In this document: positions 49,119-57,182 of the stretch, piece after piece
Layout: each line of letters starts with the position of its first letter
Position numbering within the stretch: the first letter of the stretch is position 1
IMG/VR virus record: IMGVR_UViG_3300032286_000443
Coordinates: 1 to 60,102 of that record
Reading direction: 5' to 3' (one strand)
Origin: a virus
DNA length: 60,102 nt
The notes under the pieces: generated by a model
The model's database searches: none
What the model was told of the DNA's origin: nothing
The model's input: only the letters and a program-made list of their open reading frames with translations
Position numbers and translations under genes: made by a program

Positions 49119-49268
49119 ATGAATACTTATTTGGTTTGGGTCCGTATTAATCAGTTGCAAACTGTACACGTTCGTATTATGGCGGACCATGACTATCAAG
49201 CTAAACAAATTGCCGAAGCCCAATACGGTACAGGCAATGTACTAAACTATACACTTGTAAATGAATAA
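49119..49268 (+). CDS. 49-residue protein, unknown function
   Basis: Residues read MNTYLVWVRINQLQTVHVRI then a charged helix (ADHDYQAKQIAEAQYG). GAGGAAC precedes the ATG at a good distance and a strong promoter lies upstream, so it is very probably expressed. Its last 8 bases overlap the start of the next gene, which suggests coupling to the GT9-like protein. No family recognised. Confidence 0.7.
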   Translation: MNTYLVWVRINQLQTVHVRIMADHDYQAKQIAEAQYGTGNVLNYTLVNE

Positions 49269-50046
49269 AGAAACTGAAAAAAAGATAGGACTAATACAAA
49301 GTAGAGGATTGGGCGATCTGGTGATCGCCCTTCCCATTGCCAAATGGTACGCTGACAACGGCTACGAAATCTATTGGCCTATTTGTGAAGAATTTGCCAG
49401 CAGCATGGACCAGGCAGCGCCTTGGGTCAATTGGATCCCACTAGCAGTAGACGATAGGGGCTTATTCTTTTACGACAAGCCCATGGAAGCACTGCGAGAG
49501 CTGGGCGTCGAAGAAGCAATTTGCCTGTATCAAAGCCTTACAGGACATCCAGAGTTTACCAAACGTCCTGAATTTCAAATTACAGGATTTGATCAAATCA
49601 AATATCACATTGCCGGAGTACCCTTTATGCAAAAATGGACTTTGGCTGATTGCATTATAAGAGATGCCAAACGAGAACAGGACTTTTACAACAGTGTAGT
49701 AAACAAACAGGGCAAGCCCTATGTTGTTGTTCATAAACAAGGCAGCAGTTACACGGCCAAGATAGACAGCTCGTGGATCCCAAAAGAGTGGCAAGTGATA
49801 GAAGTCACAGAACAAACCGACTCAGTGTTTGATTGGTTACAGGTTCTAGAGGGTGCAGAAGCAATTATTGCAGTCGACTCTGTCATTTCCAATATCGTCG
49901 ATCAACTTAAAATTACAGAATCTGTAGACTGCTACTTTATCCCCCGCAGTCATATTCATTTAACACCTGTGCTAGGCGGATCTTGGACTGTACTAGATTC
50001 TGACGCCGAGACGTTGAAAAAGATATCAATCTTTAAGTCGGGTTGA
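49261..50046 (+). CDS. GT9 (heptosyltransferase-like) protein B
   Basis: 261 residues. IGLIQSRGLGDLVIALPIAKWY gives the same G-x-G-D-(L/V)-(V/I)-x-x-L-P-x-A motif as protein A near the start, and the second half contains GAEAIIAVDSVISNIVDQLK with the D-S-V-x-x-x-x-x-x-Q-L nucleotide-sugar region. It could add a sugar to LPS or another glycan. A and B are diverged paralogues (or alternate enzymes) around a small early gene. It converges with the fibre-partner gene at 50033, overlapping by 14 bases. Confidence 0.75.
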   Translation: MNKETEKKIGLIQSRGLGDLVIALPIAKWYADNGYEIYWPICEEFASSMDQAAPWVNWIPLAVDDRGLFFYDKPMEALRELGVEEAICLYQSLTGHPEFTKRPEFQITGFDQIKYHIAGVPFMQKWTLADCIIRDAKREQDFYNSVVNKQGKPYVVVHKQGSSYTAKIDSSWIPKEWQVIEVTEQTDSVFDWLQVLEGAEAIIAVDSVISNIVDQLKITESVDCYFIPRSHIHLTPVLGGSWTVLDSDAETLKKISIFKSG

Positions 50047-55066: not shown

Positions 55067-55531
55067 TTATTTGTCCGCTGGCTGCTGGGGATAATTTTCA
55101 TAGATCCACCAAATACTCACACCCAAGACCAAGGGCGACGCGGCTACCAAAGCTGATTTCTTGGCCAGTACGACAAAGACATTGTTGACACTGCCCCCAA
55201 GCCACATGCTGGCCACTATTCGATCCGATTCATACAGCTCACGGGCATCACTGATCCAGGGCCTAAAGCCATATATGTAAACAGCTTTGGCAGCATGAGC
55301 GCCCAAAACTCCAAGAGGATTCAACTCCCGTACACCTTTGACAGTTTCCATGCCTATTTCAGTAGTGACCATGTCGGCAGCAGCACCGTACAATAACCCC
55401 TGTGGAATTTTAGCCTGTTGATTGTTGATATTGGGATCAGCATCAGCAGCAGTGGTAGCACAGGCAGATAACAGACCGGTAAAGGTCAAAAGACCAATAA
55501 GTTTAATAAGTCTATTTGATCTTTTGAACAT
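55067..55531 (-). CDS. Lipoprotein, unknown function
   Basis: 154 residues from the ATG at 55531; an earlier ATG at 55600 lies upstream of the promoter motif. Residues 1-23 are a lipoprotein signal peptide with lipobox L-S-A-C at 21-24. The mature part has a short helix-rich domain (AAADMVTTEIGMETVKGVRELNPLG) and a hydrophobic segment near 125-148 (SALVAASPLVLGVSIWW). Such proteins could modify the host envelope, for example as superinfection-exclusion or spanin-like factors. The late octamer TATAAATA ends 7 nt before the ATG; no Shine-Dalgarno sequence. Confidence 0.72.
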   Translation of the reverse strand: MFKRSNRLIKLIGLLTFTGLLSACATTAADADPNINNQQAKIPQGLLYGAAADMVTTEIGMETVKGVRELNPLGVLGAHAAKAVYIYGFRPWISDARELYESDRIVASMWLGGSVNNVFVVLAKKSALVAASPLVLGVSIWWIYENYPQQPADK

Positions 55532-55538
55532 GGTACAA

Positions 55539-55546
55539 TATTTATA
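55539..55546 (-). promoter_or_regulatory. T4-type late promoter TATAAATA adjacent to ATG of the lipoprotein gene
   Basis: Perfect TATAAATA on the minus strand, 7 nt before the ATG at 55531. No Shine-Dalgarno sequence. Confidence 0.65.
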
Positions 55547-55630
55547 AGCAACAGTGACACAGGTACAGTACCATATATATACAATACACTCAACACACAC
55601 TCACACGTACATATACGTACATACACGCAT

Positions 55631-55770
55631 GTATACTAAGAATACCCCGCTGTAGCTGATCAGAGAATCACAGTGTGCGTAGAACAGTGTATATAAGAAA
55701 ACCCCGCTGTAGGCGTCCCCAGTTTCCCATAGTGAGTGTAACTGTGTATATAAGAATACCCCGCTGTAGG
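55631..55770 (+). repeat. Three 25-bp direct repeats, iteron-like
   Basis: Copies at 55631-55655, 55689-55713 and 55746-55770 share a core AAGAA-x-ACCCCGCTGTAG preceded by GTATA; starts are 58 and 57 bp apart. Copies 2 and 3 are preceded by similar sequence (AGTGTATATAAG and TGTGTATATAAG). Confidence 0.9.
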
Positions 55771-55806
55771 GGGGTGAGTTAGGCTGTGTAGAAGCTGTGG
55801 AAAGGT

Positions 55807-55836
55807 TGTGGATAACTTGAGAAAAACTGTGGATAA
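55807..55836 (-). other. Two perfect DnaA boxes, 21 bp apart
   Basis: TGTGGATAA occurs at 55807-55815 and 55828-55836. Its complement TTATCCACA is the consensus DnaA box. The spacing is two helical turns, so both are on the same face. Their position beside the repeats supports a replication or DnaA-control function. Confidence 0.75.
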
Positions 55837-56024
55837 CTTGGGAGATTTGGTTGGCACCATTATACGATAGCCTCTCATCCCCACGGCCTTGCCTCAGATT
55901 TTCACGCTAGATCTACCGTGAACCGCAGCAATTTGGCGGTAAAAAGGGCCAAAAAAGCACCATTTTCTCACCGTTTTTGTCACTTTTTCGCCACAGTATT
56001 CCACCGTAGACCACACACTCCAAC

Positions 56025-56053
56025 TTGACCCGCCCCCGGTTCTAGTGTATAAT
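56025..56053 (+). promoter_or_regulatory. Sigma70-type promoter for tRNA and downstream RNA
   Basis: TTGACC, 17-nt spacer, TATAAT. Transcription would start near 56060, about 45 nt before the tRNA. Confidence 0.8.
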
Positions 56054-56093
56054 AAGTACATAGTAGAGTAGAGTATATAGTAGAGTTAGTGTG

Positions 56094-56190
56094 TATATAC
56101 TGTGGGCCGTTAGCTCATGTTGGTTAGAGCAGTGGACTCATAATCCATTGGTGCTGTGTTCGACTCACAGACGGCCCACCACAGTATATA
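56094..56190. repeat. 12-bp inverted repeat flanking the tRNA
   Basis: TATATACTGTGG (56094-56105) is the exact complement of CCACAGTATATA (56179-56190). It would extend the acceptor stem in the precursor RNA, around the encoded CCA. Confidence 0.85.
56104..56181 (+). tRNA. tRNA with CAT anticodon, probably tRNA-Ile2 (lysidine type)
   Basis: Complete cloverleaf. The acceptor stem is GGGCCGT/ACGGCCC, the D stem GCTC/GAGC and the anticodon loop CTCATAA. The T arm is CTGTG-TTCGACT-CACAG, and CCA is encoded. The anticodon CAT could be Met or Ile2. C4-G69 and C5-G68 acceptor pairs and the AGCAG...GACTCATAATC...TTGGT context match tRNA-Ile2, whose C34 is changed by TilS to read AUA. So it probably supports AUA codons of AT-rich phage genes. 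Confidence 0.95.
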
Positions 56191-56461
56191 GTGTGTATAT
56201 AGAGTTTGATAAACCGTAGGATGCACGATATATACTATGTAGTATAGTGACAGGAGCTAGAAGTCTGGGAGTCACTGAAAGGTAGTTGAGGCTCACTCGT
56301 AGAGTGACCGTAAGTGCGCCGAACCTGTAACCATGCGCTTCTAGTGGTTAGGGCTAATTATCGAGAGATAATAGGAATAAGCAGGGCGGGATTATATAGT
56401 GTCACCTGCACATATATAATACTGAATAATGGGGATAATGTTTGTGCATTATCCCCATTAT
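56182..56461 (+). ncRNA. Candidate structured non-coding RNA
   Basis: No open frame of note. Stems are: TATACT-ATGT-AGTATA (56231-56246); CTAGAAG/CTTCTAG (56257-56263 with 56338-56344); TCACTC-GTA-GAGTGA (56293-56307); and ATTATC-GAGA-GATAAT with a GNRA loop (56357-56372). Outer GTGAC/GTCAC (56247-56251 with 56401-56405) could close the whole. TAACC (56328-56332) can pair with GGTTA (56346-56350) beyond the stem, making a pseudoknot. It appears cotranscribed after the tRNA and ends in the terminator at 56427. It does not match RNase P, tmRNA or group I intron hallmarks. Function unknown. Confidence 0.55.
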
Positions 56462-56466
56462 CTTTT
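56426..56466 (+). terminator. Strong hairpin terminator
   Basis: TAATGGGGATAATG/CATTATCCCCATTA perfect 14-bp stem (56427-56460), 6-nt loop, then TCTTTT. It ends the tRNA-RNA transcript and lies just beyond the stop of the convergent 56465 gene. Confidence 0.93.
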
Positions 56467-56716
56467 AAACAAACTCAATATTATCTGTACGCAGAGTTTG
56501 TTTTGCAGTAGAGATAATACGATCTTTATCTTTTTGTATAGTTTCCCAAACAAAATCTCCGCTGACAAAGTCGCATTTTGCACGAGGGGGAAACTTCCAA
56601 GCACCTTTATCTGTTTGTTCTGTTACATTAAAAGCGCAGATAATAGTATAAACTTCTTTTTCTTTATTATATACGATTTTAGCTTTTGCAGTGTTTGCAG
56701 TATATACTTTTGACAT
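56465..56716 (-). CDS. Small alpha/beta protein, unknown function
   Basis: 83 residues from the ATG at 56716 with AAAGGAGC upstream. A small beta-rich domain is visible (KAKIVYNKEKEVYTIICAFN; CDFVSGDFVWETIQKD). It is the only minus-strand gene in the right-hand early region, with its own promoter (56742-56770). No family recognised. Confidence 0.68.
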   Translation of the reverse strand: MSKVYTANTAKAKIVYNKEKEVYTIICAFNVTEQTDKGAWKFPPRAKCDFVSGDFVWETIQKDKDRIISTAKQTLRTDNIEFV

Positions 56717-56741
56717 GTGTGCTCCTTTTGTGTATGTGTGT

Positions 56742-56770
56742 ATTATACTGTCTTTTGGAGTGCCTGTCTT
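56742..56770 (-). promoter_or_regulatory. Sigma70-type promoter for 56465-56716
   Basis: Minus strand AAGACA (56765-56770), 17-nt spacer, TATAAT (56742-56747). Confidence 0.7.
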
Positions 56771-56808
56771 GTTGTATTTTGAACACAGTCTGTGTGTAGG
56801 GTCTTTGG

Positions 56809-56837
56809 TTGACACTGTGGTAAAACCTTGCTATAAT
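56809..56837 (+). promoter_or_regulatory. Early sigma70 promoter with TGGTAAAACC spacer
   Basis: TTGACA-CTG-TGGTAAAACC-TTGC-TATAAT. The -10 box ends 6 nt before the ATG at 56844, so the mRNA would be leaderless. Confidence 0.88.
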
Positions 56838-56843
56838 ACACAC

Positions 56844-57182
56844 ATGAACAAAGAACTTGCAACCCGTAAGAAGCGTGTCGATCGCAACCACATCATATAC
56901 GAGCTGGTTGTCAACGGCAAGAACTACATTGGCGTCACTGCCAAGACTGAAAGCACTGTGAACAAGAGCGTGCTGTCGCGTGCGGCCAAGCACTTCTACA
57001 GAGCAAAGACTGAGACTAAGAACTGGCTCTTGTGTGCTGAGTTGCGTACACTGAGCGACAAGAGCGAGATAGAGGTCTACGTGCATGAGGTCATACGTGG
57101 CAAGGCGGCTGCTCACAAGCGGGAAGTTGAGATCCGCCGCATGGTCAAGCCCGTGCTGAACACTGATACCCGTGGCGATTGA
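56844..57182 (+). CDS. GIY-YIG-like nuclease-fold protein 1
   Basis: 112 residues from the ATG at 56844. The GIY-YIG pattern is visible: I-I-Y at 17-19, then NGKNYIG at 24-30, R46 in the first helix, E94/E96 in KREVEIRR, and a final P-V-L-N. The first motif is IIY rather than GIY, so it may be inactive or divergent. Such proteins are present in T4-like phages as DNA-processing or repair nucleases. No Shine-Dalgarno sequence; the start is only 6 nt beyond the -10 box. Its stop overlaps the next promoter's -35 box. Confidence 0.68.
   Translation: MNKELATRKKRVDRNHIIYELVVNGKNYIGVTAKTESTVNKSVLSRAAKHFYRAKTETKNWLLCAELRTLSDKSEIEVYVHEVIRGKAAAHKREVEIRRMVKPVLNTDTRGD

Follow-up and report, generated by a model that had tools for sequence, protein, structure and literature searches.

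The pRNA of phage phi29 is a small phage RNA whose loops pair between molecules and which has no link to tRNA. Phage T4 makes two stable RNAs, rnaC and rnaD, which are transcribed with its tRNA cluster and whose role is unassigned (PMC3014915, PMC9697503; NC_000866 annotation). ROOL is a phage and prophage RNA near tRNA islands that has a conserved kissing loop and no known function, and the GOLLD RNA studied by cryo-EM sits downstream of a Met-tRNA (PMC12286853). In both GOLLD and ROOL, loop interactions were first found by covariation and then shown by cryo-EM to be intermolecular (PMC12286853).

The window, that is, the whole stretch of DNA analysed here, is an IMG/VR virus record of 60,102 bases. 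Its segment 56182-56461 had been proposed to hold a new structured RNA behind a tRNA, in a transcript starting at 56060 and ending in a strong terminator. ARAGORN and Rfam place that tRNA at 56104-56181 (plus strand, as are all features of the unit), with the anticodon CAU (called Met) and an encoded CCA; it forms the 5′ part of the predicted transcript and is dispensable for the RNA. A sigma-70-like promoter, TTGACC-17-TATAAT, lies at 56025-56053 with 11 of 12 consensus matches and would serve both tRNA and RNA; its expected start near 56060 is compatible with the proposed one. The terminator was likewise recovered, as an intrinsic 14-bp stem at 56427-56460 that is followed by TCTTTT, with a T-rich tail starting at 56461. 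Promoter and terminator calls are consensus matches throughout, that is, predicted signals. The extent originally proposed holds for a conserved core of about 215 nt at 56211-56425, which runs from AAACC at the 5′ end to ACUGA at the 3′ end in our alignments A3, A4 and A5 and models R1 and R2, and fails for 56182-56210, which is a spacer of variable length between tRNA and core. By its sequence, the RNA is joined with the tRNA in a shared promoter-terminator unit. The tRNA appears to resemble tRNA-Ile2, in which CAU reads AUA after lysidine modification, more than elongator tRNA-Met, and a BLAST comparison with E. coli did not separate tRNA-Ile2 from tRNA-Met.

Isolated phages share just the tRNA with this locus, and neighbouring proteins were therefore taken as bait for homologous loci, namely the convergent 82-aa protein, the 261-aa protein (A1) and a 97-aa protein (A2). 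In the bait loci, the intergenic DNA that follows tRNA(CAU) carried the same series of motifs with compensating changes. Between distant members, BLAST alignments span the RNA and end at its edges, leaving the flanks unmatched; in these comparisons the RNA is an island of conservation. In total, 40 distinct homologues were recovered from IMG/VR phages, with one RNA copy per phage record. Alignment A4 holds 27 members and a structure that was hand-written from compensating changes; alignment A5 holds 38 and was built around the nested structure, which biases its counts for nested pairs that way. Model R1 scored members outside its training at 128.5 bits (L064), 103.8 (L076), 61.2 (L068) and 24 (L043), and further held-out members at 96.6 bits (L186), 135.7 (L204), 109.8 (L210), 79.9 (L217), 66.1 (L218), 173 (L192) and 112.7 (L187). 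Two more, L230 and L273, were recovered later with model R2. L231 (14.8 bits) and L232 (9.4 bits) scored too weakly to be counted as members. A looser viral pattern gave 21 further loci, none of which was confirmed, which shows that the model is specific; L267 was likewise unconfirmed.

The tRNA(CAU) lies upstream in 30 of the 40 members, at 2-71 nt from the RNA in homologues, and at 133 nt with a tRNA-Leu intervening in L117. The remaining 10 have no tRNA within 400 nt, so the RNA is an independent gene. Among the 34 members scanned for signals, most tRNA-bearing homologues have promoter-like sites 120-220 nt upstream of the core, the tRNA-less L003 and L008 have them 45-47 nt upstream of the RNA, and most have terminators about 33-42 nt past P1. 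Downstream in the window, the gene at 56465-56713 lies on the minus strand and is convergent with the RNA unit, so that here the RNA is not the leader of the downstream gene; most members also have a terminator immediately behind the RNA, and a riboswitch or mRNA leader is disfavoured.

The consensus fold consists of eight helices, with two three-way junctions inside a third one and an additional 3′ hairpin. P1 closes the molecule, P2 surrounds P3 and P4, and P5 surrounds P6 and P7. P1 (56214-56217/56386-56389) is paired in 94.7% of cases and has two pairs with two-sided changes, reading CCGU/GCGG in the window and CCCG/CGGG, CCUU/AAGG or CCGU/ACGG in other members. P2 (56219-56226/56314-56320) is paired in 80-87%, with two-sided changes in all six pairs. 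P3 has an outer part (56234-56237/56283-56286), a middle part (56247-56251/56271-56275; 94.2% paired, two-sided changes in all five pairs) and an apical part, P3c, of 3 bp (56253-56255/56264-56266). P4 (56290-56309) is a hairpin with an NUA triloop, in which U56300 and A56301 are near-invariant and the apical 3 bp are 99.1% paired. P5 (56324-56328/56381-56385) is paired in all 38 of 38 sequences (100%), with 4-5 pair types per position, and P6 (56330-56333/56345-56348) in 96.7%, with versions that include ACUG/CAGU and GGCC/GGCC. P7 (56354-56374; 92.1% paired, two-sided changes in all 8 pairs) is the GNRA tetraloop hairpin that had been noted at the outset, with the loop GAGA at 56363-56366 and the conserved flanks AGGGCU/AAGGCU and AGGAAYAAG. 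Following P1 on the 3′ side come P8 (56391-56420), ACUGA and the terminator. P8 folds in nearly every homologue while its stem sequence changes, and its loop is conserved, of the type GANACYUGC. The conserved unpaired junction nucleotides are AAACC, GAUAUA, UUGAG, the NUA triloop, AGGAACAAG and the P8 loop.

The proof of this structure is comparative, and we regard the structure as well supported. In A5 (38 sequences), 93.6% of pair cells hold standard pairs and 43 of 46 pairs show two-sided changes, with a covariation score of 0.747 against 0.215 after shuffling and 0.079-0.133 with slid partners. A4 (27 sequences) gives 90.2% standard pairs, two-sided changes in 41 of 48 pairs and a score of 0.606 against 0.197 for shuffles and 0.083-0.125 for slid partners. 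None of 500 shuffles reached any of five covariation measures. RNAalifold without a given structure found P1, middle P3, P4, P5, P6, the base of P7 and P3c; it did not recover P2 on its own, and the kissing helix described below is beyond what it can show. On the RNA tree, parsimony reconstructs 180 two-sided changes for nested pairs and 25 for the kissing helix; since the tree was built from the same alignment, these figures serve as a guide and not as a test. Folding energy alone is weak evidence, with z = -4.8 for 56182-56465 (terminator included) and just -2.0 without it. In the window, the minimum-energy fold recovers 27 of the 46 consensus pairs and nothing of P1, P2, P3a or P3c, so the comparative route was needed.

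The loops of P3 and P6 are joined by a further helix. CUAGAAG in L3 (56257-56263) pairs with CUUCUAG in L6 (56338-56344), with 98.1% of cells paired. All seven pairs are present in 36 of the 38 members and in 11 of 11 held-out members, and the 7-bp complementarity is kept across 16 different L3 sequences. When L3 and L6 were swapped between members with different L3, full pairing resulted in just 41 of 1230 combinations. Unlike the nested pairs, the kissing helix was never part of the covariance model. The original prediction had mentioned a potential pseudoknot, which is real, and the covariation in homologues that it had named as a check is strong in A4, in A5, by parsimony and in the kissing helix. 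The L3-L6 covariation would fit pairing within one molecule as well as between two. An intramolecular kiss that closes P2-P3 and P5-P6 seems geometrically possible.

Known families do not account for the RNA. An Rfam 15 cmscan of the window with all 4227 families returned only the tRNA at the gathering threshold; for the region, at E up to 10, it added just a spurious antisense match on the tRNA, and for six homologous loci, at E up to 1, it gave tRNA and chance matches only. RNase P, tmRNA, SRP, group I and II introns, self-cleaving ribozymes, phage pRNA and HEARO, all of which we take to be included among the models scanned, gave no Rfam 15 match. The GOLLD and ROOL covariance models matched nothing in the window, the region or the six homologous loci. 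Neither ARAGORN nor Rfam finds a cloverleaf in 56182-56461, and the only tRNA is the one upstream. Both the suspected lack of known-family hallmarks and the proposed new structured RNA behind the tRNA are thus supported, the latter together with the covariation. A search of the open-licence literature found no publication on this RNA.

Coding capacity is sparse. The sole sense ORF of at least 60 aa across the region is a 65-aa GTG frame at 56314-56511, and none of the 38 homologues has a sense frame that stays open across the core, in agreement with the open frame having been reported absent; antisense frames are open through it in 3 of 114 cases. A peptide gene is disfavoured, and the RNA does not look like an antisense RNA either.

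All members belong to one phage clade that shares neighbouring genes. Some member contigs reach 140-259 kb; the terminase encoded by the 259-kb record shares 54.8% identity with its counterpart in PA5oct-like phages (Arenbergviridae), the nearest cultivated relatives. Model R2 found no match in T4, PA5oct, Phosso, PBECO4, Hallingskeid or Va1, and neither T4 (rnaC and rnaD included) nor PA5oct nor any of five other large phages has the RNA. A 12.9-bit match in Vibrio phage 2.275.O was rejected, being inside a coding gene with the core missing. Among isolated phages, blastn with 55501-57100 matched at the tRNA only, and searches with the neighbouring proteins gave no matches. A pattern scan of bacterial and archaeal genomes (84,980 species) produced 8 pattern matches and no confirmed member. 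Many related records have no detectable RNA copy, through loss, divergence or the fragmentary state of the record. When the close relative L003 (5249-5560) is compared with the window (56182-56461), the flanking genes are 87% identical (56448-57154), the RNA is much diverged and the tRNA is absent, a pattern such as a recombinational swap of the RNA segment would leave.

None of the neighbouring genes is present at every locus. The commonest encodes a downstream protein of 112-125 aa, represented in the window by a 112-aa protein at 56844-57182; in 29 of 38 loci its homologues are no more than about 1.4 kb from the RNA. It has no match in Pfam, and its start, IYELVVNGKNYIGVT, recalls GIY-YIG endonucleases. 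Many relatives keep a 261-aa protein (49261-50046 in the window) close to the RNA, and in L016 and L017 it lies directly before the tRNA; it matches nothing in Pfam or PHROG, and by eye we take it to resemble a GT9-type glycosyltransferase. A near-perfect promoter cassette, TTGACA-17-TATAAT with an extended -10, occurs at 56797-56857 and also stands before many small genes, in L003, L008, L014 and L017. Upstream of the unit, TAAGAATACCCCGCTGTAG is present three times at 55637-55769 with a spacing of exactly 57 nt, and a related CCCCGCTGTAG-type repeat is found near 5850-5980 of L003 on the other strand. Two DnaA-box-like TTATCCACA sites lie at 55807-55836, and arrays of five or six occur in L117 (5142-5259), L120 (5903-6053) and L122 (2566-2704).

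Taken together, these analyses favour, with a probability of about 0.62, a stand-alone noncoding RNA of phages that forms a new class, is freed by tRNA processing and acts in trans through its fold. For its expression, partner and function we infer the following. The primary transcript would start near 56060 and end at the terminator, and host RNase P and tRNA 3′-processing enzymes would cut out the tRNA and thereby release the RNA; in tRNA-less phages, the RNA would be started from the promoter just upstream. By elimination and by analogy, the RNA would then act in trans through its three-dimensional surface, on which the conserved junction nucleotides, from AAACC to the P8 loop, are the likely partner contacts. 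Candidate partners are proteins of the phage or its host, the ribosome, and further copies of the same RNA.

The last of these partners defines a sub-case, doubtful but conceivable, in which the L3-L6 kiss forms between molecules and yields a head-to-tail ring or cage, like phi29 pRNA or the nanocages of GOLLD and ROOL. Such a homo-oligomer would be consistent with the 7-bp complementarity being kept through so many L3 sequences, and with the precedent of GOLLD, downstream of a Met-tRNA, and ROOL, whose covariation-found loop contacts proved intermolecular (PMC12286853). However, the RNA is only about one third of the length of ROOL (659 nt) and one quarter of that of GOLLD (>800 nt), and the kiss could apparently close within one molecule. 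Somewhat more speculatively still, the RNA of about 215 nt in the tRNA transcript might be a miniature, unrelated counterpart of the GOLLD and ROOL assemblies or of phi29 pRNA, self-assembling via L3-L6.

An unlikely alternative to the trans-acting RNA of this general kind is a decoy or inhibitor aimed at a nuclease or defence system of the host, that is, an RNA anti-defence factor. The free variation of helix sequences with the shape kept is what would be expected of a shape mimic, and the RNA adjoins a run of small, presumably early genes on its 3′ side, but no defence gene or target was identified and Rfam shows no likeness to a known RNA family. It is a little less probable that the compact pseudoknotted core is a self-cleaving ribozyme or one that processes the attached tRNA. 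While a pseudoknotted fold with several junctions, whose unpaired nucleotides are conserved and which sits 2-71 nt from the 3′ end of a tRNA, would suit such an activity, no Rfam 15 ribozyme family matches, the tRNA is absent in 10 of 40 members, and its distance varies, with another tRNA intervening in L117.

We consider it quite improbable that the RNA is an origin-associated transcript, serving as a replication primer or regulator. This idea draws on the window genes mainly switching from the minus to the plus strand here, on the two perfect boxes at 55807-55836 and on the box arrays of L117, L120 and L122. Yet the 3 boxes in the window are fewer than the 4.6 expected by chance, GC skew shows no single sharp turn, L120 and L122 have the tRNA(CAU) and boxes but no RNA, and most homologues lack a TTATCCACA box near the RNA, so the idea does not generalise. 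A cis-acting role in the processing or stability of the tRNA, as the direct adjacency of the two in 30 of 40 members could suggest, is largely refuted by the 10 of 40 members that keep the RNA without a tRNA and by the variation in spacer and neighbouring tRNA. Guide-like RNAs of TnpB/IscB-type nucleases and Y RNAs of the Ro protein are compact and are carried by some phages, but both are disfavoured to the point of being barely credible here, as neither has an Rfam match and as the TnpB zinc-ribbon (PF07282) and Ro/TROVE (PF05731) domains were each found in 0 of 10 related phage records, some of them fragmentary.

The stand-alone, trans-acting RNA that we favour can be set beside the phage RNAs already described. 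Like GOLLD, it is a phage-borne orphan structured RNA beside tRNA genes with loop-loop interactions, whereas GOLLD exceeds 800 nt and has another fold; that the RNA is far smaller, at about 215 nt, had been anticipated. With ROOL, which measures 659 nt in the solved structure, it shares proximity to tRNAs and a conserved kissing loop. T4 rnaC and rnaD are tRNA-linked phage RNAs as well, a link that is here read from sequence, but they are 139 and 119 nt long, and R2 matches neither the T4 tRNA region nor the T4 genome, so they represent a different family. The phi29 pRNA is similarly a small phage RNA with loop-loop pairing, but its loops are known to pair between molecules, it has no tRNA link and its family has no Rfam match here. 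The RNA is therefore new at the level of the RNA class; its secondary structure is defined, it counts 40 distinct members and its covariance model works, while there are precedents for the broader kind, an orphan phage RNA next to a tRNA. It joins T4 rnaC and rnaD, GOLLD and ROOL among the tRNA-linked phage RNAs without a known job, and, since about 215 nt is a tractable size, the long-standing question of what such RNAs do becomes testable, with the strict L3-L6 pairing rule supplying ready break-and-restore mutants.
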